The translations under genes and the position numbers were made by a program. The notes under the pieces were generated by a model. That model had not been told where the DNA came from. It did no database searches and was given only the letters and a program-made list of their open reading frames with translations. Positions 1 through 25,898 of a stretch of DNA of 64,000 nt are shown piece after piece. The stretch is taken from the NCBI RefSeq assembly GCF_900232825.1, contig NZ_OCTP01000009.1, positions 62,001-126,000 on the forward strand, given 5' to 3'. Every line of letters begins with the position of its first letter. Position 1 is the stretch's first letter. Origin of the DNA: Anaerococcus sp. Marseille-P3625 (GTDB taxonomy: Bacteria > Bacillota > Clostridia > Tissierellales > Peptoniphilaceae).

Positions 1-842
1 TCAATGCTACAAAAGAAAGTGCAAAATATGATTTTTCAGTTCTTGTTAATAATTTAATTAAAACACTAAGTGATTATAGTCCTGAAAAAGTAAAAGATTA
101 TACAAAAGATAGCGAATATGAAACAGCTATAGAAAAATTAACTGATGCATTAAAATATGCTGAAGAAAAAAAGGCAGCTTTAGATGGTAAAGCAGTAGAA
201 AACTCTGAATTATTTGACCTATATTACAAGGATAAAGAATTCAAAGATACTTACTACAAAAAAGCAACAAAAGCTCAAAAAGAAGCTTATGATAAGGCAA
301 AAACAGATGCTTACAAGGTCCTATTAAAAGGTGACAATGTTAGCGCGAAAGAATACAATGATGCCCTAAAAGCTTTAAAAGATGCTAGAAATGACATTAT
401 AAACTCATCCGATAAGGAAAAAGTATTTGAAAATCTTAAAAAAGAAATAGCTGAAGCAGAAAAATTAGATAAATCTTTGTACACAGAAAAATCTTACAAT
501 GTATTTAAGAAAGCTTTAATAGCAGCAAAAACAACAGCTGAATCTGCAAATTCAACTCTAGATCAATACAAAACAAGCCTTGAAGCTTTACAAGAAGCTA
601 AAAAATCATTAGTAAAAGTTGATACTAAAGAAGAAAAAGAATTAGCAAAACTAATAGAAGAATTAAAAGCTGCTAAAAAATCTAACGAAACAAAAGTTTC
701 TGCTGCACAATGGTTATTAGAAAACACACCAGATACAGTTAAAAAAGTTAAGGGCAAATTAGAAAAACTAATCAAAGATTCTAAAGCTATAATCAAAGAA
801 GTAGACCAATACTTAGCTGAACATGGCAAAACTAGAGGATAA
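1..842 (+). CDS. FIVAR-repeat surface protein, C-terminal part (5' end outside window)
   Basis: The reading frame is open from the first complete codon (position 3) to TAA at 840-842, so this is the end of a longer protein. It is lysine/alanine-rich and helical. At least two, probably three, FIVAR-like units of about 60 residues are visible, with the typical Y-T-x-x-S-Y ... A-L ... A-K-x-x-L pattern (last unit starts near base 477). The final ~50 residues (from base 684) are the recurring module with core AAQWLLENTPDTVKKVKGKL. There is no LPXTG signal. FIVAR units occur in adhesins and extracellular-matrix binding proteins of Gram-positive cocci. A role in adhesion is inference; export cannot be seen because the N-terminus is missing. 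It probably heads an operon with the next two genes. Confidence 0.8.
   Translation, partial: NATKESAKYDFSVLVNNLIKTLSDYSPEKVKDYTKDSEYETAIEKLTDALKYAEEKKAALDGKAVENSELFDLYYKDKEFKDTYYKKATKAQKEAYDKAKTDAYKVLLKGDNVSAKEYNDALKALKDARNDIINSSDKEKVFENLKKEIAEAEKLDKSLYTEKSYNVFKKALIAAKTTAESANSTLDQYKTSLEALQEAKKSLVKVDTKEEKELAKLIEELKAAKKSNETKVSAAQWLLENTPDTVKKVKGKLEKLIKDSKAIIKEVDQYLAEHGKTRG
684..830 (+). other. Copy 1 of the recurring AA-LL-N-P-T-V-KL module
   Basis: C-terminal ~49 residues of the cut surface protein. Key residues are A-A, L-L, N, T-P-D-T-V, V-K-G-K-L and L-I-K. It is predicted as two helices separated by the proline. The same pattern is found at 1289-1435, 2060-2206, 2439-2582, 7922-8080, 25063-25203 and 25755-25895. 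No named family was recognised. Confidence 0.8.
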
Positions 843-889
843 GAAGTAGCTAAAAACTTTTTATTTCCTATTAGAGGGAGTTTTTAACA

Positions 890-1438
890 ATGAAAATTAA
901 AAATAAGTTGTTAGTTTCAATCTTTGCGATAAGCTTTTTTGCAATGAGCTTTAACATGGAAAATAACAAAGCCCTTGCAACAAGCATCGATGAAAATGTA
1001 AATACCCCAGAAAATCAACAAGAACAATTGCAAAAAGCAGTTGATGATACAATAAAAGTTGTAAATTCAGAAGTTTATTATACTTACACAAGCCAAGAGC
1101 TAAAAAGTGAGTATGAAAAAGCCATAGCAAATGCAAAACTTGTTTTGGCAAAAAAAGATGCAAGTTATGACGAACTTAGAGATGCAACAGCTATGGTAAA
1201 TAAGGCTAAAAAAGATATCAAAGATGCCATGATAAAAATTGCTGAAAAAATAAATACCAAAAATCAGTTGGAAAAAGCTTTGAATGATAACAAAATAAAG
1301 GCTAATATGGCAAGAGATTTACTAACAAATTATCCAAAAACAGTTGCAAAAGTAAAAGGCAAACTTCAAAATATACTAAAAAGTTCAGAAGCTCTTGTAA
1401 AAGAAGCTGAAAGCCTATTAAAGCAATTAAATATTTAA
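890..1438 (+). CDS. Small secreted FIVAR-like protein with C-terminal module
   Basis: A 182-residue protein. Residues 1-31 form a signal peptide (K-rich start, hydrophobic core, Ala-Leu-Ala-Thr cleavage region). Residues ~60-115 resemble one FIVAR unit (Y-T-Y-T-S-Q-E-L ... A-N-A-K-L-V-L). Residues 134-182 are the recurring module (ARDLLTNYPKTVAKVKGKL). Its start has an AGAGGGAG ribosome site about 10 bases upstream. It lies 47 bases after the preceding surface protein and 9 bases before the next, so the three probably form one operon. Function is unknown; it is likely exported and retained at or released from the surface. No sortase signal. Confidence 0.82.
   Translation: MKIKNKLLVSIFAISFFAMSFNMENNKALATSIDENVNTPENQQEQLQKAVDDTIKVVNSEVYYTYTSQELKSEYEKAIANAKLVLAKKDASYDELRDATAMVNKAKKDIKDAMIKIAEKINTKNQLEKALNDNKIKANMARDLLTNYPKTVAKVKGKLQNILKSSEALVKEAESLLKQLNI
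1289..1435 (+). other. Copy 2 of the recurring module
   Basis: Last 49 residues of the 182-residue protein. Core residues are LLTNYPKTVAKVKGKL followed by an amphipathic helix ending S-L-L-K-Q-L. It is closest to copy 3 (both have L-L-T-N-Y-P-K-T-V). Confidence 0.8.
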
Positions 1439-1447
1439 GGAGCAACA

Positions 1448-2209
1448 ATGATAAAAACTAAAAAAGTAGCAGCTATTGGATTAGCATTAGTCTTTTCCCT
1501 AACAGGACTTGCTGGTGGAAAATCTTATTCAAATGTAAGTTTTGCACAAGGCGAAAAAACATCTTACAAAGATCTTTTGTTAGGATATATCAAAGAAGAT
1601 GCTAATTATAAAGAAAGTGAAGATTACAAAGATTCAAACGATGCCCTAAAGCTAGTTTATGTTTTGGCAATGGATACTGCTAAAACTTTAGTAGAAGATC
1701 AAAATTCAACAGAAGAACAATTTAAAGAAATTTATGAGCAAATACGCAAGGCAAAAAGCGAAATTGCTGATAAAACAAATCCAATTATGGAAAAAGCAAA
1801 ATATAGGGTAGGACTAGAAATTCAAATTTATGAAGCAAAAAATGCCCTAGAAACAATTGGTAGATATGACTATAACAAGAAATACTACGATGATCTAAAG
1901 CTTGAATATAATTATGCCAAAAAACTTGTAGACGATGACAAAACAAGCAACTACGAATTTTTGAAGGAAGCTAAAGATCTTAAAAATGCAAAAGATACAT
2001 TCATAAAAGAAAACAATAGAAAAGCTTATATCATAAGACTTGAAGATGCTATAGCTGTAAATCAAAAACAAGCTGCAGCAGCCAAGGATTTGCTAACAAA
2101 CTATCCAAAAACTGTAAGCAAGGTTAAAGATAAACTAGAAAAAATCTTAAAAGATTCTCAACAACTAATAGAAGAATCTCAAAAACTATTAAAAGAGCTA
2201 AAAAAATAA
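1448..2209 (+). CDS. Secreted FIVAR-like protein with C-terminal module
   Basis: A 253-residue protein. A signal peptide occupies about residues 1-35 (hydrophobic core near A-L-V-F-S-L-T-G-L-A). Two FIVAR-like helical units follow (about 50-115 and 125-195; motifs such as Y-x-x-S-x-D ... A-M-D-T-A-K-T-L-V). Residues 205-253 carry the recurring module (AKDLLTNYPKTVSKVKDKL). The ribosome site AAGGAG lies 6 bases before ATG. A strong terminator follows at 2227, closing the operon. Probable surface adhesin or wall-associated protein; ligand unknown. No LPXTG motif and no membrane segment after the signal peptide. Confidence 0.82.
   Translation: MIKTKKVAAIGLALVFSLTGLAGGKSYSNVSFAQGEKTSYKDLLLGYIKEDANYKESEDYKDSNDALKLVYVLAMDTAKTLVEDQNSTEEQFKEIYEQIRKAKSEIADKTNPIMEKAKYRVGLEIQIYEAKNALETIGRYDYNKKYYDDLKLEYNYAKKLVDDDKTSNYEFLKEAKDLKNAKDTFIKENNRKAYIIRLEDAIAVNQKQAAAAKDLLTNYPKTVSKVKDKLEKILKDSQQLIEESQKLLKELKK
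2060..2206 (+). other. Copy 3 of the recurring module
   Basis: Last 49 residues of the 253-residue protein: A-A-A-A-K-D-L-L-T-N-Y-P-K-T-V, then K-D-K-L-E-K-I-L-K and a final helix ending K-L-L-K-E-L-K-K. Confidence 0.8.
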
Positions 2210-2226
2210 TTAGATTATAAAGATTA

Positions 2227-2249
2227 AACACCCCTGGGGTGTTTTTTCT
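2227..2249 (+). terminator. Rho-independent terminator of the secreted-protein operon
   Basis: Perfect 7-bp stem AACACCC / GGGTGTT with a 3-base loop, followed by a T-rich tract. Confidence 0.9.
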
Positions 2250-2318
2250 TATCCCTATCTTTATAAAAATCTTAAAAATCGTATAGTTTAAGTAAATACA
2301 AATTTAAAGAGGTTATAA

Positions 2319-3431
2319 GTGAAAAGAAAAATTCTTGCAATAATTTTTGCTCTGGCTTTAATAATGCCAGCAAATTTAGGCGAAAAAAATATGGCTTATG
2401 CCATTTCAAATAAAGAATTAGCAGATAATTTAGATCCGAGCAAACTTGAAGCAAAAGTTGCTGCGGCAAGGTATTTGCTTGAAAATTACCCTAATACAGT
2501 CAGGGGAAGCATAAAAGAAAAGCTTAAAGTTCTTCTAAAAAAATCTCAAGAAACCTTAAATGAAGTTTACGCTTTCAAAAGAAAATACGGCAGCGAAGAT
2601 ACTCTAGCAATAAGGGTAAAAAATCAAATAAGAGAAAATTTAAGATTAAGAAAGACAGATTTTACAGTAAATATCAATTCCTATGCAGATAACGACCAAA
2701 TTTCCCAATATTTCTTAGAAACTTGCAAGGAAAATCCGTATTTTTTCTATAGCATTTACGAAAAAGCCAATGTTTCTAGCAAATATAATTCAGAAATGTC
2801 AAATGGAAGTAAAATCTATATGGACTCTGCAAGATTTATAGTTACTTACAGAGAAAATCAAGAGATTGAGAAAAAAGTTGAAGAATTTGCCAATAATTGG
2901 GTACAAAATAATATCAGTTCCTCTGATTCCGACTTTGATAAAGCTTTAAAAATCCACGATTTTATTGTAATGCAAAATCAATATAACCTAGGAGATAGCA
3001 AAAAGAGAAGTGGTGGATATTCTATTTACAATCCATCAAGCATTATCTTTGGCAATGGTGGTGTTTGCAATGCCTATGCAACCTTGTTTGACAAATTAGC
3101 ATCTCTTTCAGGTCTTGAAGTAAGATATGCAACTGGAATATCTAAAAAAAATTCAGAGTCACATATTTGGAACATGGTAAAAATTAACGGAAATTGGATG
3201 AATGTCGATACAACTTGGGATGATCCAACTTTAAAATTTGACGATGGTTATGTGACGAATCTCGATGATTTTGTGATTTATGATTATTTTCTAAAAAGCG
3301 ATGAACAAATGAGATACAGTAGAATCATAGATGAAGATAAAAATAGACCTTTGGGACTTACAACAATAGATACAGGTCTAAAAAATTCAACGATCAAGAA
3401 AATTGGCGATACTTATATGGTTGTAAAATAG
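2319..3431 (+). CDS. Secreted transglutaminase-like protein with N-terminal module
   Basis: A 370-residue protein starting at GTG, with AGAGG 6 bases upstream. A signal peptide covers residues 1-28. Residues 41-88 are the recurring module (ARYLLENYPNTV ... KEKLKVLLKKS), here directly behind the signal peptide. Residues ~210-320 are a transglutaminase-like (papain fold) domain. The Cys-His-Asp triad is visible as C250 in GGVCNAYA, H282 in SHIWNM and D297 in VDTTWDD. Bacterial proteins of this type are thought to cross-link or cleave surface proteins or wall peptides; the exact reaction is not predictable. It follows the operon terminator, so it probably has its own promoter. Confidence 0.85.
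   Translation: MKRKILAIIFALALIMPANLGEKNMAYAISNKELADNLDPSKLEAKVAAARYLLENYPNTVRGSIKEKLKVLLKKSQETLNEVYAFKRKYGSEDTLAIRVKNQIRENLRLRKTDFTVNINSYADNDQISQYFLETCKENPYFFYSIYEKANVSSKYNSEMSNGSKIYMDSARFIVTYRENQEIEKKVEEFANNWVQNNISSSDSDFDKALKIHDFIVMQNQYNLGDSKKRSGGYSIYNPSSIIFGNGGVCNAYATLFDKLASLSGLEVRYATGISKKNSESHIWNMVKINGNWMNVDTTWDDPTLKFDDGYVTNLDDFVIYDYFLKSDEQMRYSRIIDEDKNRPLGLTTIDTGLKNSTIKKIGDTYMVVK
2439..2582 (+). other. Copy 4 of the recurring module (N-terminal position)
   Basis: Residues 41-88 of the transglutaminase-like protein: V-A-A-A-R-Y-L-L-E-N-Y-P-N-T-V, then an insertion of two residues (R-G-S-I) before K-E-K-L-K-V-L-L-K-K-S. This is the only copy in the window that is not C-terminal. Confidence 0.7.
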
Positions 3432-3446
3432 AATTTTCTACAATTA

Positions 3447-3484
3447 AAAAATAGTGGCGAAAGATTGCCACTATTTTTTGCTTA
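3447..3484. terminator. Bidirectional terminator between convergent genes
   Basis: Perfect 12-bp stem AAAAATAGTGGC / GCCACTATTTTT at 3447-3458 and 3467-3478. It serves the transglutaminase gene on the plus strand and the mnmM operon on the minus strand. Its right arm overlaps the stop codon of mnmM (3471-3473). Confidence 0.88.
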
Positions 3485-4013
3485 TAATATTAAGATATGG
3501 TGGGGTATTTTTTTGATTTGGATAAGAAAGTTTTAGGACTGTAAAAAGTTTTTGATCCAAATTTCCAAGGTAGGCGTCAAGGGCATCTGCTTCTAATTTT
3601 CCTTCTTTATGGCCTGGATAAACACTTATAAAAATTTTCCCGTCCTTGTTTAATAGGTCTAAAAGTTTTTTTAGACTATTTATGGTGGAAGTTTTCTTGG
3701 TGGTAATATTTTTGTCGGCTTTTGGCAAATAACCTAGATTATAAATAGCTAAATCAATTTTTTCTTTAACATATTTATCGATATTTTCGTGACTATCTAA
3801 AATAAAGGTAAAATTTTCTCTATTTCCTATAAGTTTTTGTGTATTTTCCTTAGCTTTAGCTTGGATATCAAAGGCATAAAGTTTAGTAGCTTTTAGCTCA
3901 TCAAGGATAAATTTGCTATCATAACCGTTGCCAGCAGTCATATCCACCGCTACATTTATCTTTTTTTCATTTTTTAAAATTTCTTTGGCAAGTTCTGTAA
4001 TTTTTTCTATCAT
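3471..4013 (-). CDS. mnmM: tRNA 5-aminomethyl-2-thiouridine methyltransferase (MnmM/YtqB family)
   Basis: A 180-residue class I SAM-dependent methyltransferase. The SAM-binding motif I is V-D-M-T-A-G-N-G-Y-D near residue 25. An acidic post-I residue lies in AFDIQ, and NLGYLP near residue 95 is the family's catalytic-region motif. This matches the family once labelled rRNA methylase (B. subtilis YtqB), now known to complete the mnm5s2U wobble modification of tRNA. Its start overlaps the stop of the upstream immA-like gene (TAATG), so it is translationally coupled. Cytoplasmic. The linkage to a regulator-protease pair is unusual. Confidence 0.85.
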   Translation of the reverse strand: MIEKITELAKEILKNEKKINVAVDMTAGNGYDSKFILDELKATKLYAFDIQAKAKENTQKLIGNRENFTFILDSHENIDKYVKEKIDLAIYNLGYLPKADKNITTKKTSTINSLKKLLDLLNKDGKIFISVYPGHKEGKLEADALDAYLGNLDQKLFTVLKLSYPNQKNTPPYLNIISKK

Positions 4014-4561
4014 TAGTAATTGTAATAATCTTCCTCGATGTTGCCGTCAATTTGTGCAAAAAACTTTGGGTCAGCTTCATTTTGTCTTATTGGCATACCC
4101 ATCCTATGCATTTCGTTTAATTTAAAAATCATAAGATTTGCATTTACCTCGTATAAACTTGCCAATTGATTGTAGGTATAACCTAATTTTAAATCTTCTA
4201 GTAAAGTTTCTTCGTTTATTAACAGGTGGGCAGCAAAAATATTGGCCTCAATTTCCATATCTGTTCTTATGTCAAAGAGTTCATATTCTGCCATTTGATA
4301 AGAAAGTTCGTCTTTGTGGTAAATATCATGACCAAGTTCGTGGGCTAGAACCATATTAAGAAGTGGATCAGATAAATGAGGGTTATAAAATACAAAACGG
4401 TTTTTCTTGATAATTTTATACATGCCCAAAACTTTTGTTGGACTTTTAAAGGGGATAAGAAACACACCTTTTGCTTCTAAAATTTCCCTAGGGTCTCTGG
4501 TCTTGTATTTTTTTATGATCTTTTTTGTATCGAGGAAAATTTGATCGTATAAAACTGACAT
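4013..4561 (-). CDS. ImmA/IrrE-type metallopeptidase
   Basis: A 182-residue protein with the zinc-protease motif AHELGHDIYH (H74, E75, H78) and a downstream E-I-E-A-N-x-F-A-A-H-L-L segment that supplies the third ligand. This is the ImmA/IrrE family (DUF955), whose members cleave XRE-type repressors in response to a signal. It begins immediately after the stop of the XRE gene (TAG then ATG), which is the usual partner arrangement. Residues after 130 include an HTH-like stretch (YTYNQLASLYEV), as in other IrrE proteins. The likely target is the neighbouring regulator. The inducing signal is unknown. Confidence 0.85.
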   Translation of the reverse strand: MSVLYDQIFLDTKKIIKKYKTRDPREILEAKGVFLIPFKSPTKVLGMYKIIKKNRFVFYNPHLSDPLLNMVLAHELGHDIYHKDELSYQMAEYELFDIRTDMEIEANIFAAHLLINEETLLEDLKLGYTYNQLASLYEVNANLMIFKLNEMHRMGMPIRQNEADPKFFAQIDGNIEEDYYNY

Positions 4562-4963
4562 CTATTTCCTCTTTTTTGATCCGTATTTTTTATTTTCATT
4601 TTTGGCTATATAATAAGCCTCGCTTATAGCATCAAGGATTGCTTTTTTATCTTTTTCTGGCAATTCTCCACCTGCCATTAGTCCAATTACACCATTTACA
4701 AGCTCTTTGGCATCTCTTGCGCCCTTTGCTCCATAACGTTCATAGGCTCTTAAAATAAAATCATCCTCATCTGTTACCAAATAATCGTGACTTGTATCCA
4801 AAGCTTCTGCCAAAGCATCGTAAGTTTTTCTATACCTAGGTTTGCTTTGACCTGATTCATATCTTGAAATTGTCTTTAAAGAAACATTGCAATATTTTGC
4901 AAGCTCTTCTTGGGTCATATTTTTAGCTTCTCTTAAATCTCTAAGTTTTTCTGCAAATGCCAT
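4562..4963 (-). CDS. XRE-family transcriptional regulator
   Basis: A 133-residue protein with a Cro/C1-type HTH at residues 2-65 (T-Q-E-E-L-A-K-Y-C-N-V-S-x-x-T-I-S-R-Y-E-S-G), followed by a short helical C-terminal region. The start is ATGATG; the second ATG (4963) is preferred because AGGAG lies 5 bases upstream of it and only 2 from the first. It is the first gene of an operon with the ImmA-type protease and mnmM. By analogy with ImmR/ImmA it should repress its own promoter or stress genes until cleaved. No integrase or phage gene is nearby, so this looks chromosomal. Confidence 0.82.
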   Translation of the reverse strand: MAFAEKLRDLREAKNMTQEELAKYCNVSLKTISRYESGQSKPRYRKTYDALAEALDTSHDYLVTDEDDFILRAYERYGAKGARDAKELVNGVIGLMAGGELPEKDKKAILDAISEAYYIAKNENKKYGSKKRK

Positions 4964-5068
4964 CATATCTCCTTGTAATTAATATTATAGTCTTCTATTG
5001 TCTATATTATACATTAAAAGTCAAATCCTAACAAGAAAATAGAGCGAAAAACAAAACTATTAATAAAA

Positions 5069-5545
5069 TTAATTAAAAATTTTATCGTCGTTGTCGGAAT
5101 CATCAGTAGAAAGAGCTCTAATATCTAGGGTTTTCCCTAAATCTTTTAATTCTTTAAAGCAAGCGATATCGTCATCGTCTACGTATACTGTTTCATTTAC
5201 TTTTTTCTTGTAGTATTTTCTACTCATATTACCAACATTTACCATATCAATATCAAGTCCATTTTCTATTAGGGAAAGGGCATCTTTTGGATTTTCTACA
5301 AGAACTAAAGCCTCAGTATCATCTTCTAAATCACCTAATTCCTTAATTGCTTTTTCAACTGTTAAAAAATAAATTTTAGTATTAAGTGGTGTTACAATTT
5401 CCATAAGCTTTTGGGAATTTTCATCCATAAAAGTTCTGTCGTTAACTACAACGATAATGTCAGCTCCAACTTCTTTAAGCCAACTTTTTCCTATTTGACC
5501 ATGCATTAGTCTATCATCAATTCTTAGTAAAACTGTCTTTGCCAT
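5069..5545 (-). CDS. Orphan PTS IIB component, mannose/fructose/sorbose family
   Basis: A 158-residue protein matching the IIB domain of mannose-family phosphotransferase systems: L-L-R-I-D-D-R-L-M-H-G-Q-I, where H15 is the phospho-accepting histidine. The family normally transfers phosphate from IIA to sugar entering through IIC/IID. No IIA, IIC or IID gene is next to it. The C-terminal ~15 residues are unusually acidic (D-D-S-D-N-D-D-K). Ribosome site AAGGA precedes ATG. Either the partner subunits lie elsewhere or the protein serves as a phosphorylation-state sensor; this cannot be decided here. Confidence 0.85.
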   Translation of the reverse strand: MAKTVLLRIDDRLMHGQIGKSWLKEVGADIIVVVNDRTFMDENSQKLMEIVTPLNTKIYFLTVEKAIKELGDLEDDTEALVLVENPKDALSLIENGLDIDMVNVGNMSRKYYKKKVNETVYVDDDDIACFKELKDLGKTLDIRALSTDDSDNDDKIFN

Positions 5546-5758
5546 AATATATCCTTTCTTATATATAGTTATTTTGAAATGACTTTACCAGATATTTATC
5601 TTACTGCCATATTTTAGATAAAAAAATTCATCTTTAAGCAAATTTAATAGAAAAATTCTTATAATATAAAAAATATGATTTATTATATTGCTTACTCTAC
5701 AAATTTTCTTAGGCAATAAGAAAAATATAAATCATATACTTATAAAGGAGAAATATAT

Positions 5759-8083
5759 ATGAAAAATAAAAACAAAAAATTAGCAAGCGTACTATTAATG
5801 GCAATGGGATTTAATATGATTATGCCAAGCCTAAACTCAAAAGCTGATACAAAACTCGAAAGTCCGATAGAAGAAAAACAAAGCATCAAAGTAAAAAATT
5901 CAACCATAGAAACATTGGAAAAAGAATTAGATAAAGCAAAAATATATCTAATAAAAGCTAAAAATGATTTAAAAAATAAAGAAGCTGAGAAAAATCTCAT
6001 TGATAAACAATACAAAAAGTTAGCTGAAGAATATGAAAAAGCAAAAAGCCAAAGCGAAATTGCTAGAAAAAAACTAGAAGAATTAAGCAAAAATGAAATA
6101 GAAGCTAAAGCTAATTTAGATAAATTTATAAAAGAAAAAGAAAATCAAGAAGAAAGTTCAAAAAAACTAGATCAAGCTATTAAAGACCTAGAAATAGCCA
6201 AAAAAGATAAAGAAAAAGTGGATAAGGAATTAGAAAATGCACAAAATGATAAAAATGCTCAAGAAGAAAAATTTAACAAAGCAAAAAAAGCTCTAAGCGA
6301 AGCCAAAGAAATTGAGCAAAAAGAAAAAGATCTTTTAGAAAAAATAAATAATGATCCCAAAATCAAAGAAAACAAAGATAAAAAAGACAAAACTAGCAAA
6401 GATTTAGAAAAAGCTAAAGATTTAGATAAAAATTATCTAGAAGCTAGCAAAGAAGATTTAACAGACGTTCGCCTGAAGATAAAAGAATCTCAAGAAATTC
6501 TTAGTAATTCAAGAAATAATCTCGACCAAAGCAAGGATCAAATAAAGGATCTTTATGGTAATATAAAAGAGTTTGAAGCAAACAATAAAAACTTAGGAGA
6601 ACTTAATAAAGAAAAAGAACAAGCAGAAAAGGAATTAGCGAATCTTCAAAAAGACACAGAAGAATACAAAGAAAAAGAAAATCAAATTGAACAAATAAAA
6701 CAAAAAATTGCAAATATAGATGAAATAAAAGACCAAGTAAATGAAAAGTATAAAAATCTATACGAAAAAGCTGAAACTGATTTTGGGAAAGTTAAAGATT
6801 ACAGCAATGGATTCGATAAGTTAATTAATTCTATAATAGAACAAAGTGAAAAACAAGCAAAAAACAATCTAATAGATAATATCAAAAAAGGCGAGATAAA
6901 ATCTTCAAATATTGATGAGAAAATAAGCGAAGCTAAAGCAAAAGCAGATGCTGTAAAAATGCAAAAAAGTGCAGCTGAAAATAATTATATGAAAGCTAAG
7001 GAAAAATTTGCCAAAGCTTGGGATGATTTGACAATAGCAAGCCAAGGACTAAAAAATAGCAAAGCAAAACTATATGACAAGAATTTTATTGACTCAGAAG
7101 AAGAAATCAACAAAGAAATTAAAGAAAATGAAGAAAAATTCAACGAAGCTATAAAAACTTTAAAAGAATTATCAACTGACTTGGTAAATAAAGAAGAAAC
7201 ACTAAAACTAGTTTTAGGAGAAGAAGAAAGACTTGGCGCCTATGCCAAAGCAATAGAAGGCTCAAAGTCCATGATAGAAACTCTTGAAAAAAATAGAAAC
7301 AAAATTGAAGAATTAAGTAAAATTTTAGAGCAAATTGACCAAGAAAATAAAAAAGTACAAGAACAAATTGATGTTGCTAAGGCAAAACTTTTAGAAAAAC
7401 AAAAAGAAGTAGAAAAACAAATTGAAACATCAAAAAAAGCAGAAAAAGAATTAGAAGAAGCTAAAGAGAATTTGAAAAAGGCAGAAAGCAAAAAAAACGA
7501 AACAGATAAAAAGATTAAAGATTTAGAAGAAACAATAAAAAAACTAGAAAAATCATCAGAAGATAAAAATATCGACCAAAAAATAAAAACAGCCAAAGAA
7601 AAGTTAGAGAAGATACAAAAAGAAAAAGAAATTTTGAATAAAGATTATGAAAAAGCTAAAAACAGAGAAAAAGAATTAAAGAAAAAGCTAGATGACGAAA
7701 ATCATAAAAAATTAGAAGCTCAAAAAGAATTAGATAATGCCAAAAAAGAAGTGGAAAAAGCTCAAAACTACCTAAATTATAAAGAAAGTCAATTGTCAAA
7801 TGCTAAAAATTCTACAGATAAAATTTTTGTAAAAAAAGGCTATAAATTCATCAAAGAAGGTAATTACCAAAGGCAAAGTCTTGCCAATAATCTAAATTCT
7901 ATCAAAAATTCATTAAGATTAAACCAAATAAAAGTTGAAGCTTGTAAATTCTTATTAGAAAATACACCAAAGACTGTAAAAAATGTTAAAGGCAAGTTAG
8001 AAAAACTATTAAAAGTATCAAGTGATTTACAAAAACAAGCACAAGAAGCAATTAAGGAATATGAGGAAGTTCTTTCTAAATAA
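5759..8083 (+). CDS. Long secreted coiled-coil protein with C-terminal module
   Basis: A 774-residue protein. Residues 1-29 are a signal peptide (hydrophobic core LLMAMGF, end SKA). Residues ~45-720 are almost pure K/E/A/L/N heptad-rich coiled coil with no cysteine until the end. Residues 722-774 carry the recurring module (ACKFLLENTPKTVKNVKGKLEKLL). Ribosome site AAAGGAG precedes ATG. No LPXTG, no membrane segment, no enzyme motif. The shape suggests an extended stalk held at one end by the module, as in M-protein-like or SMC-like surface fibres; this is inference. It stands alone between the IIB gene and the thrS leader. Confidence 0.8.
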   Translation: MKNKNKKLASVLLMAMGFNMIMPSLNSKADTKLESPIEEKQSIKVKNSTIETLEKELDKAKIYLIKAKNDLKNKEAEKNLIDKQYKKLAEEYEKAKSQSEIARKKLEELSKNEIEAKANLDKFIKEKENQEESSKKLDQAIKDLEIAKKDKEKVDKELENAQNDKNAQEEKFNKAKKALSEAKEIEQKEKDLLEKINNDPKIKENKDKKDKTSKDLEKAKDLDKNYLEASKEDLTDVRLKIKESQEILSNSRNNLDQSKDQIKDLYGNIKEFEANNKNLGELNKEKEQAEKELANLQKDTEEYKEKENQIEQIKQKIANIDEIKDQVNEKYKNLYEKAETDFGKVKDYSNGFDKLINSIIEQSEKQAKNNLIDNIKKGEIKSSNIDEKISEAKAKADAVKMQKSAAENNYMKAKEKFAKAWDDLTIASQGLKNSKAKLYDKNFIDSEEEINKEIKENEEKFNEAIKTLKELSTDLVNKEETLKLVLGEEERLGAYAKAIEGSKSMIETLEKNRNKIEELSKILEQIDQENKKVQEQIDVAKAKLLEKQKEVEKQIETSKKAEKELEEAKENLKKAESKKNETDKKIKDLEETIKKLEKSSEDKNIDQKIKTAKEKLEKIQKEKEILNKDYEKAKNREKELKKKLDDENHKKLEAQKELDNAKKEVEKAQNYLNYKESQLSNAKNSTDKIFVKKGYKFIKEGNYQRQSLANNLNSIKNSLRLNQIKVEACKFLLENTPKTVKNVKGKLEKLLKVSSDLQKQAQEAIKEYEEVLSK
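7922..8080 (+). other. Copy 5 of the recurring module
   Basis: Last 53 residues of the coiled-coil protein: V-E-A-C-K-F-L-L-E-N-T-P-K-T-V, then V-K-G-K-L-E-K-L-L-K-V-S. It shares T-P-x-T-V-K-x-V-K-G-K-L-E-K-L with copy 1. Confidence 0.8.
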
Positions 8084-8185
8084 TTAATAAATTCTGTTAA
8101 TGCTAGTAAAATTTTATTCATATAAATAGTAAGCAAATAATATTTGCAAAAATTATTCGATGTGGTAAATTAAAAATATATTATA

Positions 8186-8394
8186 ACTGTGATGGGGCAG
8201 TAAGTATTAGGAAAATTTACAGAGAAAAGATGTTAGCTGAGAATTCTTGATGAAACTTTTACCCAAAACCACCCCGGAGTTTTTTAAGAAATTAAAACGA
8301 GTTTGTCGCGTTAAGACGTAAATGAGTAAAAAATTAGGTGGAACCACGGATAATCCCGTCCTTATATCGGAAACGATAGAGGGCGGTTTTTTAT
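8186..8394 (+). promoter_or_regulatory. T-box leader of thrS (threonine)
   Basis: Stem I begins with GGCAGTAAG. An AGAGA element lies at 8220-8226. The T-box core is AGGTGGAACCACGG (8337-8350), followed by a terminator hairpin (CCGTCC ... GGGCGG, 8357-8387) and T-tract. The specifier loop follows the pairing ATTAGGAA / TTCTTGAT. The bases after it are TGAAACTTTTACC, so ACT at 8255-8257 is the likely threonine specifier. Uncharged tRNA-Thr should stabilise the antiterminator and allow thrS transcription. Together with an AT-rich promoter region this fills the 332-base gap before thrS. Confidence 0.9.
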
Positions 8395-8415
8395 TTGTAA
8401 AAAAAAGGAGAGCAT

Positions 8416-10338: not shown

Positions 10339-10347
10339 GGAAAAATA

Positions 10348-16927: not shown

Positions 16928-16984
16928 CTACTATATATGGTATAATTTAATCAATAGATGAAAAATAAACACTATATCTAGTGT
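16928..16984 (+). promoter_or_regulatory. NrdR box(es) and promoter of nrdA
   Basis: The sequence ACACTATATCTAGTGT (16969-16984) matches the NrdR consensus, and its dyad extends perfectly to AAATAAACAC / GTGTTTATTT. A weaker box, CTACTATATATGGTAT (16928-16943), overlaps the -10 TATAAT (16941-16946). The box centres are 41 bases apart, about four helical turns. NrdR should repress nrdA when dATP is high. Confidence 0.75.
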
Positions 16985-17014
16985 TTATTTCTTTTGAAAA
17001 ATTTAGGAGAAATG

Positions 17015-19543: not shown

Positions 19544-19552
19544 AAATCAAAT

Positions 19553-19588
19553 ATCTCACAAGCCCTAAAAACTTGTGGGATTTTTTTA
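19553..19588 (+). terminator. Terminator of nrdA
   Basis: Stem ATCTCACAAG / CTTGTGGGAT (one G-U), 9-base loop, T-tract from 19581. Confidence 0.85.
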
Positions 19589-19611
19589 TAAAATTTTATT
19601 TTCTCAAATCG

Positions 19612-19639
19612 TTGCCCTAATTTTTAAATCCAATATAAT
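19612..19639 (+). promoter_or_regulatory. Promoter of the holin-like gene and nrdB
   Basis: -35 TTGCCC (19612-19617), 16-base spacer, -10 TATAAT (19634-19639). No NrdR box was seen here. Confidence 0.65.
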
Positions 19640-19669
19640 GAATATAAGAAATTTAATTTAGGAGTTTTT

Positions 19670-19996
19670 ATGATATTATTTATAACAAATGCCATAGCCC
19701 TTTGGCTTATGAGTCAATTTATTTCACATGTTTCTTTTGATAAGCCAAGTGCGCTTATATTAACAGCAGCTATTTTAACGCTTTTACAAAAAATAGTTAA
19801 ACCTATTTTAACTTTTATATCCTTTCCAATAACATTTTTGACTTTGGGTTTATTTAATTTGGTAATAAATGCCTTTGTCCTTTATCTTGCCTTCAAATAT
19901 GTAGAGGGGGCAAATATCGACAGCCACCTATCAAGTACGGTTATCGCAGGAATTATTTTATCAATATTAACATCTATAATACAATATATTTTGTAA
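19670..19996 (+). CDS. Four-helix membrane protein, phage holin 4_2 family
   Basis: A 108-residue, very hydrophobic protein with four membrane segments. The conserved stretch K-P-I-L-T-F-I-S-F-P-I-T-F-L-T-L-G-L-F of the phage_holin_4_2 (YvlD-like) family is present. Despite the name, these proteins are widespread chromosomal membrane proteins and not proven holins. It ends 10 bases before nrdB and shares its promoter. Role unknown. Confidence 0.85.
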   Translation: MILFITNAIALWLMSQFISHVSFDKPSALILTAAILTLLQKIVKPILTFISFPITFLTLGLFNLVINAFVLYLAFKYVEGANIDSHLSSTVIAGIILSILTSIIQYIL

Positions 19997-20006
19997 GGGG
20001 GAAATT

Positions 20007-21065
20007 ATGGAAGATAGCAAAAAAAAAGAAGTCAGCAAACGTGGAATTTTTAACGAAGATGGAGATATAGATCTTTCAAAAAGAAAAATCATCCAAGGAA
20101 ATACCACAAATCTTAACGATTTTAACAATTTAAAATACACTTGGACAAGCGATTGGTACAGACAAGCCATGAACAACTTTTGGATCCCAGAAGAAATCAA
20201 CCTAAATCAAGATATCAAAGATTATAGAAATCTAGACAAAGATGAAAAATTCGCCTTTGATAGAATAATTTCATTTTTAACCTACTTAGATTCTATACAA
20301 ACAGCAAATTTGCCAAATCTACAAACTTATATAACAGCAAATGAGATCAATCTTTGCCTATCAATTCAAACCTACCAGGAATCAATCCACTCCCAATCCT
20401 ATTCATACATCCTAGATACAATTTGCTCTCCAGAAGAGAGGACTAAAATTTTGTATATGTGGAAAGATGACGAACATTTACTTCATAGAAATGAATATAT
20501 AGGAAATCAATACAATGATTTTTTGGAAAAAGACGATGAATTTAACTTTATGAAGGCCTTGATTGCAAATTATATACTTGAAGGAATTTATTTTTATTCA
20601 GGATTTTCTTTCTTCTATAATTTGGGAAGAAATAGCAAGATGCCTGGAACAGTTCAAGAAATTAGATATATAAATCGTGATGAAAACACTCACTTGTGGC
20701 TATTTAGATCTCTAATAAACGACCTTAGAAAAGAAAGGGCCGATCTTTTTACAGAAGATCATATCAAATACTATAGAGAAATGCTAAAAGAAGGAGTTGA
20801 GCAAGAAATTGCTTGGGGCAAATACGCCATAGGCGATAATATAGTTGGCTTAAATGGCAATATGATTGAAGATTATATTAAATATCTAGGAAATCTTCGT
20901 GCCAAAGGCCTAGGATTTGAAGCCTTATACCAAGGATATGAAGAAATTCCATCATCTATGAAATGGGTTGATGAATACTCAGATCCAAACGCTGTAAAGA
21001 CCGACTTTTTTGAAGCAAAAGTTTCAGCTTACTCCAAATCTTCAATAATAGAAGATGATTTATAA
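20007..21065 (+). CDS. nrdB: Class I ribonucleoside-diphosphate reductase, small subunit
   Basis: A 352-residue R2 protein. All metal ligands are visible: D95, E125, H128, E192, E226 and H229, in the contexts L-D-S-I-Q, Q-E-S-I-H, I-L-E-G-I and D-E-N-T-H. The radical tyrosine is Y132 (E-S-I-H-S-x-S-Y). It should therefore build a tyrosyl-radical dimetal cofactor (Fe or Mn) and serve the NrdA encoded upstream. Ribosome site AAGGGGG precedes ATG. No NrdI or thioredoxin gene is adjacent, so it cannot be said from context whether the cofactor is di-iron or dimanganese. Confidence 0.96.
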   Translation: MEDSKKKEVSKRGIFNEDGDIDLSKRKIIQGNTTNLNDFNNLKYTWTSDWYRQAMNNFWIPEEINLNQDIKDYRNLDKDEKFAFDRIISFLTYLDSIQTANLPNLQTYITANEINLCLSIQTYQESIHSQSYSYILDTICSPEERTKILYMWKDDEHLLHRNEYIGNQYNDFLEKDDEFNFMKALIANYILEGIYFYSGFSFFYNLGRNSKMPGTVQEIRYINRDENTHLWLFRSLINDLRKERADLFTEDHIKYYREMLKEGVEQEIAWGKYAIGDNIVGLNGNMIEDYIKYLGNLRAKGLGFEALYQGYEEIPSSMKWVDEYSDPNAVKTDFFEAKVSAYSKSSIIEDDL

Positions 21066-21080
21066 AATATAAAAACCAAG

Positions 21081-21117
21081 GCTATTTGGATAAGAATTCC
21101 TATCCAGATAGCTTTTT
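21081..21117 (+). terminator. Terminator of nrdB
   Basis: 12-bp stem GCTATTTGGATA / TATCCAGATAGC with one G-U pair, 8-base loop, T run. Confidence 0.9.
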
Positions 21118-21183
21118 ACTTTTATGGGAGATTTTATCTTGTATAATAAGTTAGATGTATATTTTACTAAAAGGAGTAGAAAT

Positions 21184-21681
21184 TTGAAAGTTAAGAAACC
21201 TGGTTTAAGGATTATAAAAACTTTTATTGCGGTAAGCCTTGCTTGCCTTATTTCGTATTTAAGAGCTGGGGAAAGTTTGCCTTTTTATAGTGCCATAGCT
21301 GCAATTATTTGCCTAAAAGAAGGAGTAGAGGAAACTAAGCAGATTGGAATAAATAGGATTTTTGGAACAATCCTTGGCGGAATTTGTGGCTTAATATACC
21401 TACTTATAATTCCCAAAAATGCCCTACCATATTCTCTTGAGCTAATACTTATAAGCTTTTTGGCAGCTTTTAATATTTGGTTAATGTCTATGTTAAATAA
21501 GCCAAAAGCAATAACGATTATGGCTATTGTTTTTTTATCCATAACTATAAATCATGGCAAAGAAACAACTTTACCCTTTATCTTTGCCTTTAGCAGAATG
21601 TTAGATACCATGATTGGAGTTCTAAGCGCTATACTTATCAACAGGTTGGATTTTAAAAAAATCAACAAGTATAATTTTTAA
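21184..21681 (+). CDS. Aromatic acid exporter / FUSC-like membrane protein
   Basis: A 165-residue protein with four to five membrane segments, beginning K-x-G-x-R-I-I-K-T-F-I-A-V, typical of the ArAE_1 (YgaE/UPF0421-like, FUSC superfamily) proteins. The start is taken as TTG at 21184 because AAGGAG lies 7 bases upstream; an ATG at 21124 has no ribosome site and would add a non-family extension. The short form lacks the cytoplasmic C-terminal domain of longer members. Substrate unknown. Confidence 0.75.
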   Translation: MKVKKPGLRIIKTFIAVSLACLISYLRAGESLPFYSAIAAIICLKEGVEETKQIGINRIFGTILGGICGLIYLLIIPKNALPYSLELILISFLAAFNIWLMSMLNKPKAITIMAIVFLSITINHGKETTLPFIFAFSRMLDTMIGVLSAILINRLDFKKINKYNF

Positions 21682-21733
21682 GGTGAAAATAATAAAAACA
21701 ATTATATGTTAATAATAAATAATAGGAGGAAAA

Positions 21734-22456
21734 ATGATCGAAGTAAAAAACTTTTCAAAAGTTTATGGCAATGGCAAAAAAGCCGTAGATGACATAAGCT
21801 TTGAGGTTAGAGATGGCGAAATTTTCGGATTTTTAGGACCAAATGGTGCCGGTAAATCTACAACCATAAAAGCAATTGTCGGCATTAACAAAGCTACAAG
21901 CGGAGAAATTTTGATAAATAATATTAAATTAGCTGACGAGCCTATAAAATATAAAAAGCAATTTTCTTTTGTACCTGATAATCCAGAATTATTTGAAAGC
22001 TATACAGGCAATGAATATATAAATTTTTTGGCTGATATTTACGGTTTGGATGAAAATACCAGAAAAGAAAGACTGGATTATTATTTGGGTTTTTTTGACA
22101 TAAAAGATGCTATGAATGAGCAAATAGAAACTTATTCTCATGGTATGGCTCAAAGACTTGCTCTAATTGGAGCTTTGATTAACGATCCAGAAGTAATTAT
22201 CTTAGATGAGCCTATGGTTGGTCTTGATGCAAAATCTGCCTATAATCTAAAGGAAATTTTAAGAGCCAGAGCAAAAAGTGGAAAATCTGTATTTTTCTCA
22301 ACCCACGTTATGAGCGTTGCCCAAGAACTTTGCGATAGAATTGCAATTATCAACAAGGGAAAGATCATAGCAGATGGAACTTTTGATGAAATTAGAAATT
22401 CTACCAACCACAAGGAAAATCTTGAAGCAGTATTTTTGGAGCTAACAGATGAATAA
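21734..22456 (+). CDS. ABC exporter ATP-binding protein
   Basis: A 240-residue ATPase. Walker A is GPNGAGKST near residue 38, the signature is Y-S-H-G-M-A-Q-R (relaxed LSGGQ), Walker B is VIILDEP and the switch His lies in STHVM. The N-terminal G-x-K-K-A-V-D-D-I-S-F-E pattern fits the drug/ABC-2 exporter group. It overlaps the permease gene by 8 bases and forms a two-gene exporter. Substrate unknown. Confidence 0.93.
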   Translation: MIEVKNFSKVYGNGKKAVDDISFEVRDGEIFGFLGPNGAGKSTTIKAIVGINKATSGEILINNIKLADEPIKYKKQFSFVPDNPELFESYTGNEYINFLADIYGLDENTRKERLDYYLGFFDIKDAMNEQIETYSHGMAQRLALIGALINDPEVIILDEPMVGLDAKSAYNLKEILRARAKSGKSVFFSTHVMSVAQELCDRIAIINKGKIIADGTFDEIRNSTNHKENLEAVFLELTDE

Positions 22457-24095
22457 TCTAAAAACTATCACAAAATACACATTTAAGGAGCAATTTTTCC
22501 CATATTATCCCAACAAAAAAGCAATGAATATGCCAAATAGTTATGTTCTAAGAATTTTGTATTTTATAGGACTTTATGGATTATTGTCATATGTGGTTTA
22601 TTCATTTATGAGAGCTATTGGGACTTTATATTTGCCTTTGCCTAATGGCGAAACCATGTATTTTGCCTTCTTTGGAACTTTGCTTACTATTTCAATAATA
22701 GTCTTTTACATTCCAAGAATCTTATCGGATTTTTTCTCTGATACAAAAATAAATATTTATAAGACCTTGCCGATAAAAGAATCCGAACTTTTTATGGGCA
22801 AATTATTGGGAAGCGTTCTATCTTTTGTGGACTATTTGCTATTTTTCATAATAGGAATTTATATTTATTTTTCCATAAAAGGATTCGACATTAGTGTATT
22901 ATTTTTTGGTATATTAAACTTTTTTACCATAATTTTAATACCATATAGTTTGCTTACTGGACTTATACTTATAATTATGAGATTTACATCAGTTGGCAAT
23001 CACAGAAAGACCCTAAAAAATATAGGCTATATAATACTTTTTGCAATAATTGGAGCTTATTATTACTTCGCCTTTAATTTTAAGGGAAATAGCGGAAAAG
23101 AATCACAGATTTTTACTACAGCTACATCTGCCCTAGCAAATTTTTCTAATGCATTTTTCAATGCTAAATTCTACGGCCTAAGTCTAAGCGGAACTCTTGG
23201 TCAAAAAATTACTTATAGTCTTATTTTGCGGGCAATTACTATTGCAATAACTTTTATTATGTACAAACTTTCTGGTAAATTTTACTACAAGAGCCTTGGT
23301 GAAAAAGACGAGGAAACTAAAGTAAAGAAAAAAGAAAATACCAACAAAAGTACAAGTTTCGTCCCAAAATCTCAAGTTTATGCCATAGCAAAAAGAGATA
23401 TCAAAAATCTTACATCAAATATAGTGTTTTTCTCTCAGGCTGTAATGATGGTTATAATATTTGTGGTTATGGGATTAAGTGTTGGAAAAAGTCTTGGTTC
23501 AGAAATAAGTAAGAATGACCTTTACTCTTTGACAGGAAGATTTTGGAGTTTCTTTGCTGGTATAATTTTTGGAATTTTGATGTGGATGAATGGCGGTTTT
23601 GCAAATTCATCACTTTCACGTGAACACAAAAGTTTCTACCTTTTCCAAAGCCTACCAATAGATCCCAAAAAACATTTTTTGGCAAGACTTTGCTCAAGCT
23701 TTATCCTTTGCTTGCCATTTAACTTAGTAATGTCCATATTAATAACAGTATTTGTAGGACTTGGAATAGCTAATGGAATTTTACTATTTTTGGGCTTCTC
23801 CGTTGCAAGTTTGCTTGCTGCTATAGTAGGTCTTTACACTGGAAGCAAAAAAATTATTATAAATTGGACAAAGCCAGAAGAATTGAGCAAGGGAGGACTT
23901 AGAAATTTTATCTATTACATCCTATCTCTAATTTATGTTGGGCTTTTGATTGGTCTTTATATCTTGCTTATGAATATTTCTTCAATGGGAGAAATCCTTG
24001 GACCAATTTTAATAATTTCTCTTCTCATAGTAAGCTGCTTATTATTTTATAAACTTGCTTTAAATTCCTATAAAAATGGTTTTTACGATTTATAA
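22449..24095 (+). CDS. ABC exporter permease, 12-segment type
   Basis: A 548-residue polytopic membrane protein with hydrophobic segments throughout and a charged cytoplasmic loop near residues 280-305 (K-K-K-E-N-T-N-K-S). It matches the putative ABC exporter permease family that pairs with a single ATPase. Translationally coupled to that ATPase. Likely exports a lipid, peptide or drug; not predictable. Confidence 0.85.
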   Translation: MNNLKTITKYTFKEQFFPYYPNKKAMNMPNSYVLRILYFIGLYGLLSYVVYSFMRAIGTLYLPLPNGETMYFAFFGTLLTISIIVFYIPRILSDFFSDTKINIYKTLPIKESELFMGKLLGSVLSFVDYLLFFIIGIYIYFSIKGFDISVLFFGILNFFTIILIPYSLLTGLILIIMRFTSVGNHRKTLKNIGYIILFAIIGAYYYFAFNFKGNSGKESQIFTTATSALANFSNAFFNAKFYGLSLSGTLGQKITYSLILRAITIAITFIMYKLSGKFYYKSLGEKDEETKVKKKENTNKSTSFVPKSQVYAIAKRDIKNLTSNIVFFSQAVMMVIIFVVMGLSVGKSLGSEISKNDLYSLTGRFWSFFAGIIFGILMWMNGGFANSSLSREHKSFYLFQSLPIDPKKHFLARLCSSFILCLPFNLVMSILITVFVGLGIANGILLFLGFSVASLLAAIVGLYTGSKKIIINWTKPEELSKGGLRNFIYYILSLIYVGLLIGLYILLMNISSMGEILGPILIISLLIVSCLLFYKLALNSYKNGFYDL

Positions 24096-24171
24096 AATTT
24101 TAATGAGTAATGAACTTTTTCTTCTTATTTGCTATAATATTATTAGATAATAATTATTGGAGGATATAATT

Positions 24172-25206
24172 ATGAAAAATAAGAAAAGGTTCATAATGTC
24201 ACTTGCCATATCTTTTGCGATTATGGTATCTGTCTTTGTAGGAGCGACTACAAGCTTTGCGAGTGAAGGCCTAGATTTGGGAGTTAATATAGGCAATATG
24301 AAGTTGCCACAAAGATCTTTAAGATTAAATCAAAGTCAAGCAAGCAAAGAAGCTGCATTAAATGAGATCAAAAAAATCAGATCAAGAGCTTGGGATGAAA
24401 ATATCTATTATACTTATGAGGCTAACAATAGCAAAGGCTATAGAATAAGAGATATAGCTAAAATGTATAAAAATAGAAGCAAAGAAGATTATGTAAATAG
24501 CATATATTGGTCAATTGAATTGGAAAAAATCGCCATTCAAAGAGCTATTGAACAAACTATAACAGGTTTAAGTCACACTAGAGCAGATGGAAGTGATTGG
24601 GATAGTGCAAGATCTAATGGAGTAGAAGCTAATGCAGAAATACTTGCAATGAATTCTTCAACCATGCAACCTTCTTTGGCCTTTGATCAATGGTCGTTTA
24701 GAACAGTTAATGGAAATAAATCAGAATATGATTATTTGTTAGCTTCCAAGGGAGTTGGCACAGCTGAGAATGGTCATCTTCATGCAATCTTAGATCCAGG
24801 ATATTTCTTTGTAGGGTACGCTGATGTAAATAATACTGGAAGCAGATTTAATTATGCTGTTGGAGAGTTTGCAACTAATGCTAATAAGAGCGAAACAAGC
24901 ACAGGCTTGGTTGGTGATTATGGATTTTCTAGATCAAATTCTTCTACGATTTTATTAGAGAAATTAGGCCAAGCAAAAGCAACTAATCCTATAAAAGAAC
25001 AGCCGACAGATAATAAGCTTTCAAAAGAAACTAGAGAAAAACTAGAAAAAGCTGTCAAGGATTCTAAAAAGCAGATAGATGCTGCAAATTATTTGATGAA
25101 AAATTTACCTAAAACAATAGCAAAAGTATATGATAAGTTGGTTAATTTGATAAAAATTGCTAATGATACAATTGCTAGTGCAGAAACTTTACTAAATAAC
25201 AATTAA
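24172..25206 (+). CDS. Secreted CAP-domain protein with C-terminal module
   Basis: A 344-residue protein. The start is ATG at 24172, 8 bases after TTGGAGG. Residues 1-29 are the signal peptide (end S-F-A-S). Residues ~55-245 are a CAP/SCP-like domain: E-L-E-K-I-A-I-Q-R-A-x-E, SHTRADGSDW, G-V-E-A-N-A-E-I and GHLHAILDPGY. The central histidines and glutamates of the CAP cavity are present. Residues ~280-297 form a SKETR-containing linker, and 298-344 are the recurring module (A-N-Y-L-M-K-N-L-P-K-T-I). Role of bacterial CAP proteins is unsettled. Probably one operon with the next gene (14-base gap). Confidence 0.83.
   Translation: MKNKKRFIMSLAISFAIMVSVFVGATTSFASEGLDLGVNIGNMKLPQRSLRLNQSQASKEAALNEIKKIRSRAWDENIYYTYEANNSKGYRIRDIAKMYKNRSKEDYVNSIYWSIELEKIAIQRAIEQTITGLSHTRADGSDWDSARSNGVEANAEILAMNSSTMQPSLAFDQWSFRTVNGNKSEYDYLLASKGVGTAENGHLHAILDPGYFFVGYADVNNTGSRFNYAVGEFATNANKSETSTGLVGDYGFSRSNSSTILLEKLGQAKATNPIKEQPTDNKLSKETREKLEKAVKDSKKQIDAANYLMKNLPKTIAKVYDKLVNLIKIANDTIASAETLLNNN
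25063..25203 (+). other. Copy 6 of the recurring module
   Basis: Last 47 residues of the CAP protein: Q-I-D-A-A-N-Y-L-M-K-N-L-P-K-T-I, then V-Y-D-K-L-V-N-L-I-K and E-T-L-L at the end. It is nearly the same as copy 7. Confidence 0.8.
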
Positions 25207-25220
25207 GAGAGAAGATAAAT

Positions 25221-25898
25221 ATGAAAAATAAATTAAAATATGGATTACTAGTAATTGCCCTATCACTAGGCTTTACACTTATTAATACGCAAATTGAATC
25301 TGCTAGAAAAATTTCTTATGCAGCTACAAATTATTCAAATTCTGCATTTTATAGATCAAAAAAAACTAGAGACGCTTATCTCTCATTAACAAGTGAGCAA
25401 AGAGAAGAACTTGATAGGATGAATACTGATAATAAGGTCCCTCTTACAATTGAAGAAGTTCTTGCCACGGGCAAATATAAACTTCCTATTAGAGAAGGCG
25501 TAGATTGGCTTTATCCTTTTATGCTCGATAAGAATAAAAATGGAGAAGTTGGTGAAAATTATATAGGACCAAATAATGGCTCTCAAAGCAAAGATTCCCC
25601 TACAACGATAGTTCAAGAAACCACAGTTGAAGAAAACACCAATATAGTAGTTCCAATTAGTCCTTTAATAAGTGAAAAAACTGACGATAATTTAGAAATT
25701 GCCGAAGGAATTTCCAAAGAAACTAGACTACAACTAATGGAAGCTATAGCAAATGCAAACAAGCAAATTGATGCTGCAGAATATTTAATGGAAAATTTCC
25801 CTAAGACTATAGCTAAGGTAGTGGATAAGTTAGAATTTTTGATAAAAGATTCTAAAGAAACTATAAAAATGGCAGAAAAACTGCTAGCAGAGAACTAA
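25221..25898 (+). CDS. Secreted protein of unknown function with C-terminal module
   Basis: A 225-residue protein. Signal peptide residues ~1-34 (Y-G-L-L-V-I-A-L-S-L-G-F core, I-S-Y-A end). Residues 35-110 contain an unrecognised region with T-S-E-Q-R-E-E-L-D-R-M and W-L-Y-P-F. Residues ~110-160 are a T/E/V-rich linker. SKETR marks residues ~164-168, and 179-225 are the recurring module (A-E-Y-L-M-E-N-F-P-K-T-I). Downstream partner of the CAP protein; both share linker and module, suggesting that they act at the same surface location. Confidence 0.78.
   Translation: MKNKLKYGLLVIALSLGFTLINTQIESARKISYAATNYSNSAFYRSKKTRDAYLSLTSEQREELDRMNTDNKVPLTIEEVLATGKYKLPIREGVDWLYPFMLDKNKNGEVGENYIGPNNGSQSKDSPTTIVQETTVEENTNIVVPISPLISEKTDDNLEIAEGISKETRLQLMEAIANANKQIDAAEYLMENFPKTIAKVVDKLEFLIKDSKETIKMAEKLLAEN
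25755..25895 (+). other. Copy 7 of the recurring module
   Basis: Last 47 residues of the 225-residue protein: Q-I-D-A-A-E-Y-L-M-E-N-F-P-K-T-I, V-V-D-K-L-E-F-L-I-K-D-S, ending A-E-K-L-L. Confidence 0.8.

Follow-up and report, generated by a model that had tools for sequence, protein, structure and literature searches.

Anaerococcus is a human-associated genus whose members are human commensals and opportunists. In a stretch of 64,000 nucleotides from Anaerococcus sp. Marseille-P3625 (contig NZ_OCTP01000009.1, positions 62,001 to 126,000; G000:C8:62001-126000 in our numbering), which we call the window, seven secreted proteins carry copies of one small module that matches no accepted family. 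Most genomes of the genus have the module, predominantly at the C terminus of exported proteins, and it also forms the end of an acidic lipoprotein encoded directly downstream of a conserved surface protein. We infer that the module keeps proteins on the cell surface, a reading that is well supported.

How it might do so is a matter for a model. The module would be a docking tag of the genus, in the form of a helical hairpin. Clients, as we call secreted proteins that have no other anchor, would carry it at the C terminus or, in fewer cases, at the N terminus. Once a client is exported, its hairpin would pair with another hairpin, most likely in a four-helix bundle, and the protein would be held on the cell. 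The fixed partner would be the lipoprotein, presenting an acidic module above the membrane on an acidic arm some 70-90 residues long. Pairing would run through hydrophobic faces, often aided by opposite charge, and a few module proteins with NAKTG tails could add attachment points in the wall. We regard it as an even bet that clients are retained by plugging, non-covalently, into the hairpin of the lipoprotein. Somewhat more tentative is the full picture: a display system of the genus's own in which homologous hairpins serve as plug and dock, and one acidic lipoprotein hairpin, sharing an operon with the V[KR]TG-tailed surface protein, gathers as many as about 30 different module copies, on enzymes, albumin binders and coiled coils, by hairpin-hairpin pairing and partly replaces covalent sortase anchoring.

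Seven copies of an unnamed module

The initial annotation had claimed seven copies of a module of about 47 residues. All seven are present in plus-strand open reading frames (ORFs), and the module is real but somewhat longer, at 53-57 residues. Our recovery test is reciprocal and not fully independent, because the 132 modules of its profile, all from other genomes, were first gathered with a profile started from the window copies; read with that limit, it finds exactly seven places at E <= 1e-3 in the six-frame window (E 1.9e-13 to 8.4e-21), and the same profile does no better than E 0.16 on the reversed window used as a control. The copy at 7895 is lost under HMMER default filters and recovered with filters off, probably because its carrier is a coiled coil. 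Aligned, the seven copies share seven invariant columns. The genome as a whole has 15 copies. Clients and modules in the window, with lengths in amino acids (aa), are as follows.

3-842, + strand: FIVAR-like secreted client, N terminus outside the window (ORF list)
657..827, + strand: module copy 1, C-terminal in the FIVAR-like client (profile match)
890..1438, + strand: 182-aa secreted client (ORF list)
1262..1432, + strand: module copy 2, C-terminal in the 182-aa client (profile match; AlphaFold2 predicts a hairpin for this copy)
1448..2209, + strand: 253-aa secreted client (ORF list)
2033..2203, + strand: module copy 3, C-terminal in the 253-aa client (profile match)
2319..3431, + strand: transglutaminase-like secreted client (PF01841, E 9.2e-13)
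2430..2591, + strand: module copy 4, N-terminal in the transglutaminase client, after the signal peptide (profile match)
5759..8083, + strand: 774-aa coiled-coil secreted client (ORF list)
7895..8065, + strand: module copy 5, C-terminal in the coiled-coil client (profile match, filters off)
24157..25206, + strand: CAP-domain secreted client (PF00188, 24.2 bits, cut-off 21.1)
25036..25203, + strand: module copy 6, C-terminal in the CAP client (profile match)
25221..25898, + strand: 225-aa secreted client, no Pfam domain over cut-off (ORF list, Pfam)
25731..25895, + strand: module copy 7, C-terminal in the 225-aa client (profile match)

The first carrier has its signal peptide just outside the window (L044:7748-8839). 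The transglutaminase and CAP domains named by the initial annotation pass Pfam; its FIVAR domain, in the first carrier, scores 20.8 bits where Pfam requires 29.2. Relatives of the 182-aa client occur in 16 of the 17 genomes read.

The module had been put forward as one without a name, and so it stayed in our searches. It has no Pfam match over the curated cut-off in the seven window carriers or among 45 single modules, no NCBIfam match over the curated cut-off in the window carriers and, for the 45 modules, no PHROGs match at E <= 0.01. Solved-structure chains gave only chance-level matches to module sequences. Among the best 25 of 80 weakly matching Pfam families, the commonest resemblance is to DUF948 (PF06103; 12 of 45 modules at E <= 1, best E 0.0034). 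We rejected it as an identity: window carriers score 11.1 and 15.3 bits, and the cut-off is 37.2. The GA module (PF01468), a three-helix albumin binder (PMC3962080), is another small helical surface module of Gram-positive bacteria and is found in some of the same proteins. It too was rejected: PF01468 is absent from the window carriers, its match lies outside the module in six GA carriers, and two helices are predicted for the module.

Carriers across the genus and their anchors

With our profile A2 the module is found in 23 of 31 Anaerococcus genomes, at 1 to 30 copies each, and in none of 99 other genomes of the same family; across the order that makes 23 of 249 genomes and one genus of 92. 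When 30 genomes are placed in a tree by their threonyl-tRNA synthetases, the seven module-less genomes included form one clade (support 100/99); next to it, on a long branch, stands G017, which bears the module. Among virus contigs, none was confirmed as a module carrier. The regions around matches in 17 genomes hold 150 modules in 139 reading frames when filters are off; a default-filter run gave 146 modules in 135 frames, and it is these 146 that underlie the charge, class and tree counts below.

The initial annotation had expected a terminal module in exported proteins, to be checked against signal peptides, and the wider count bears it out. The last module lies 10 residues or fewer from the C terminus in 112 of 138 carriers with a complete end, and a crude hydrophobicity rule sees a signal peptide in 123 of 128 carriers as against 163 of 413 non-carrier frames of the same regions. 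What precedes the module varies greatly. Clustered without it, 135 carriers fall into 59 payload groups, 12 of them lipoproteins whose linkers do not align to each other. Among 30 carriers scanned, six have albumin-binding GA modules over the Pfam cut-off; other payloads over it are a subtilase with FIVAR repeats, pullulanase-associated and amylase domains, 5'-nucleotidase, a beta-lactamase-family domain (PF13354) and G5, and many carriers have none. Remnants of the module stand in short or stop-containing frames (G013:C38:64393, G051:C6:297782-298275, G022:C47:5229), which points to birth and decay of client genes.

One module is the rule (128 of 139 carriers). Eleven proteins have two modules: five with a linker of 13-15 residues, five with one of 33-34 and one with 24. 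Such fixed lengths hint at a defined geometry between two hairpins. Carriers of this kind (L074, L098, L057, L092, L050, L075, L076) include a 5'-nucleotidase and a beta-lactamase-family protein. The counts also bear on a reading in which the module binds a host molecule, like the three-helix modules of GA or protein A. Small, helical and on the surface, it does sit beside GA modules in some proteins; yet it has two predicted helices rather than three, it is terminal and mostly single, and it is attached to enzymes and to a lipoprotein that is otherwise only a linker. Ligand-binding modules are usually repeated. We consider host binding very unlikely.

If the module keeps proteins on the cell, their relatives in species without it should have another anchor, and the GA proteins allow a comparison. 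All 16 GA genes counted in module-bearing genomes carry the module; the count takes two G024 frames flanking a masked run as one gene, includes a G049 copy read by eye, and sets aside two weak G020 frames (21.0 and 23.9 bits) in which neither module nor tail was seen. The two GA proteins found in module-less genomes, those of G008 and G054, have after the GA matches a frame whose tail is NVQTG, then a hydrophobic stretch, then KRK (2 of 2); this sample is small, consists of two closely related genomes and involves partly masked genes, G008 having a GA-like end in the tail's frame and G054 a masked run flanked by the GA part and the tail. GA proteins thus bear the module where related species bear a sortase-type tail, which favours the surface retention first proposed for the module. 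CAP parts occur in 15 of 31 genomes and transglutaminase parts likewise in 15 of 31, all of them module-bearing. Sortase matches are present in all 31 genomes of the genus, so the module is no substitute for a missing sortase.

The carriers had also been described as lacking any other anchor. This is true of the seven in the window, none of which has a C-terminal sorting motif, hydrophobic stretch or positive tail, but not genome-wide, where 13 lipoproteins and six NAKTG-tailed proteins carry the module. Those six are the only ones among 135 classified carriers with a C-terminal hydrophobic stretch, and their ends are of the sortase type. Sortase-type tails seen in the genus read NAKTG, NPKTG, NVQTG or NSKTG, not LPXTG (L048, L328, L324, L325, L072), and because of these motifs a search for LPXTG would miss them.

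The acidic lipoprotein and the pairing of hairpins

The 13 lipoprotein carriers share a plain design: a signal peptide with a lipobox, then an acidic low-complexity linker (about 70-90 residues, net charge -13 to -31), and a single module that closes the protein. A lipoprotein profile built from these 13 finds one strong full-length match per genome in 20 of the 31 genus genomes, at 107 bits or more. G018 has a split match of 74 bits that rises to 113 on rescoring, and of the 21 genomes with a strong match, eight lie outside the profile. The lipobox pattern is present in 21 of 21, with the cysteine invariant in the 13 aligned. G017 has a divergent candidate of 145 residues and 40 bits whose module falls below the module-profile threshold. 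Counting it, the lipoprotein is found in 22 of 23 module-bearing genomes; the exception, G004, is 86% complete. In the eight module-less genomes matches to the lipoprotein profile end by position 116 of 161, before or early in the module, and so none covers it; a profile of divergent modules finds no match there either.

Immediately upstream of the lipoprotein gene and on its strand, all 22 genomes, G017 among them, have a frame for a surface protein of 481-1609 residues that ends in V[KR]TG[IV], a hydrophobic stretch and a basic tail; four of nine scanned have Pfam FIVAR domains. Downstream, the next gene is a client in 9 of 20 resolved genomes. In the genome of the window the order runs V[KR]TG protein, lipoprotein, 174-aa client, then the FIVAR, 182-aa, 253-aa and transglutaminase clients. 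The window thus starts within a gene cluster downstream of the V[KR]TG FIVAR surface protein and the lipoprotein (G000:C8:57684-61108; L044:3684-7108), which lie some 0.9 to 4.3 kb before it; the module of this lipoprotein is at G000:C8:60929-61096. Six genomes (G005, G006, G018, G022, G052, G010; L333, L335, L334, L081, L339, L086) have, as the gene next after that of the lipoprotein, one for a membrane protein of 210-244 aa that may be NfeD-like.

With its long flexible arm at the membrane, and a single strong copy per genome beside a conserved surface protein, the lipoprotein might instead be a carrier or quality-control factor that catches module proteins emerging from the Sec channel and passes them on, their final partner being another molecule or the proteins being released. 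GA proteins, sortase-tailed in related species, would be expected to act on the cell, which argues for lasting retention over transfer and release. We judge a role of this kind improbable.

What makes the lipoprotein a candidate dock is its module. Structure prediction, suggested as a check by the initial annotation, gave a two-helix hairpin (AlphaFold2 on 14 module sequences, single-chain; residues 2-29 and 38-62, mean pLDDT 87.6, pTM 0.63). Positions a, d and e of both helices are hydrophobic in 64-86% of client modules, against 10-54% elsewhere; on average 16.5 of 22 such positions are hydrophobic, with the register set by eye. This is more than a lone hairpin would be expected to bury, so a partner is likely. 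In being terminal, predicted helical and hydrophobic on its a/d/e faces, the module resembles docking elements of the four-helix-bundle type. No relative reached significance in structural searches. Their weak matches include repacked hairpins of ROP, a dimeric RNA-binding protein of the cytoplasm, but this resemblance too falls short of significance.

The two classes of module differ in charge. Lipoprotein modules are acidic in 21 of 21 (-6 to -12, mean -8.8), and the 133 client modules average +2.0 (range -9 to +11), only two of them at -6 or below; with relatedness ignored, the Mann-Whitney p is 2.8e-13. F8, R15 and E18 are invariant in all 21 lipoprotein modules and variable in clients. 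In a module tree that is rough, since it rests on 57 columns, the lipoprotein modules cluster (support 97/91) with two G021 clients inside (charge -9 and -1), and their mean identity between clades is 0.463.

These charges bear on another proposal, that a basic second helix binds an anionic polymer: over 146 modules net charge runs from -12 to +11, and the lipoprotein copy is acidic throughout, so the basic helix is not general. Direct binding to a wall component (teichoic acid, polysaccharide or peptidoglycan), in the manner of LysM, SLH, CWB2 or WXL domains and with the lipoprotein as a membrane-wall tether, is nonetheless the main rival to docking. The terminal position in exported proteins, the many copies, the GA tail difference and the mildly basic average of the clients would all suit it. 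It has to contend with that spread of charge and with the pattern of conservation: the columns best conserved in clients and lipoproteins together are hydrophobic or the turn proline, with no shared polar or aromatic patch. Nor did Pfam find a known wall-binding domain (LysM, SLH, CWB1/2, WXL, SH3, PGB, ChW) in the seven window carriers and 30 further ones, and no such family is among the best 25 of 80 weak Pfam families for the 45 single modules. On balance we think direct wall binding unlikely, if less so than the other alternatives.

Within a species the modules tend to evolve in concert, which a common partner would lead one to expect. Different payloads of the same genome (182-aa, FIVAR, 256-aa and CAP clients) have modules 42.6% identical on average; the same payload in other clades gives 31.5%, different payloads in other clades 30.1%, and the same-genome excess was reached in none of 2000 label shuffles. 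Such similarity, together with the remnants and with lineage-specific expansions, could also come from a functionless helix pair that spread recently to C termini, multiplied by recombination between surface-protein genes. Against this stand a hydrophobic pattern that is conserved genus-wide across numerous payloads and a lipoprotein, nearly universal, in which some positions never vary; we give it the least credence of all.

Several points weigh against docking on the lipoprotein. Gene conversion alone could produce concerted evolution of the modules; the same payload within a clade reaches 44.0% identity, as high as different modules of one genome, and when the N-terminal transglutaminase modules are included, same-genome identity drops to 38.7% against 31.8%. 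Client modules are not basic on average in G021 (-5.0), G022 (-2.3) and G010 (-0.2), and one G021 client (-9) is more acidic than the G021 lipoprotein (-7), so charge cannot be the whole pairing rule; the acidity of the lipoprotein module may simply follow from its acidic host protein. The next gene after the lipoprotein is not a client in about half of the genomes. Hairpins are a common fold, and no structural match stands out. Isolated ones with such faces might self-associate without the lipoprotein, and a single lipoprotein might not suffice for as many as 29 other module copies if its expression is not strong. Finally, the structural models behind the docking proposal are of single chains.

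Known systems and smaller observations

In the cohesin-dockerin display of the cellulosome, dockerin, which binds calcium, meets a partner of unrelated origin, whereas here dock and plug would be relatives in one hairpin family; no dockerin or cohesin profile matched at E <= 0.001 in the seven window carriers and 30 others. Polyketide synthase docking domains join cytoplasmic synthase subunits in set pairs. In them, short helices at protein ends assemble as four-helix bundles by way of a hydrophobic interface, and charges aid specificity (PMC9113145). Anaerococcus clients differ in being exported, and one dock would serve many of them by a pairing that is here conjectural. The WXL domain offers a different likeness: a C-terminal retention domain on many proteins, encoded in gene clusters, with a reported interaction with a transmembrane protein (PMC5817068). 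It comprises the last 120-190 residues with Trp-x-Leu motifs, and no such match was found in the 37 Anaerococcus carriers scanned.

Non-covalent surface display by a dedicated module is thus familiar from LysM, SLH, WXL and cohesin-dockerin (PMC5817068). In the open PMC literature we found no description of a hairpin family that gives both a tag for many clients and a single dock. Predictions of Gram-positive surface proteomes work from a short list of anchors, and for a good share of its surface proteins Anaerococcus appears to use one outside it; because of that absence, module proteins would be filed as merely secreted. Docking, if true, would explain the missing sorting signal in the albumin-binding proteins of most of the genus, and the hairpin would be a small, genetically encoded pairing tag. 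A layout of one dock and many clients also makes a prediction: with the lipoprotein removed, many surface proteins should be lost.

Two smaller features of the window remain. A terminator-like inverted repeat lies at 2226-2244, between the 253-aa and transglutaminase clients. In the coiled-coil client a second short conserved stretch, I-[FY]-V-x-K-G-Y-K, stands upstream of the module (7823-7891), and several large carriers with coiled coils or GA modules have it there as well (for example L049 and L155; more loosely L059).

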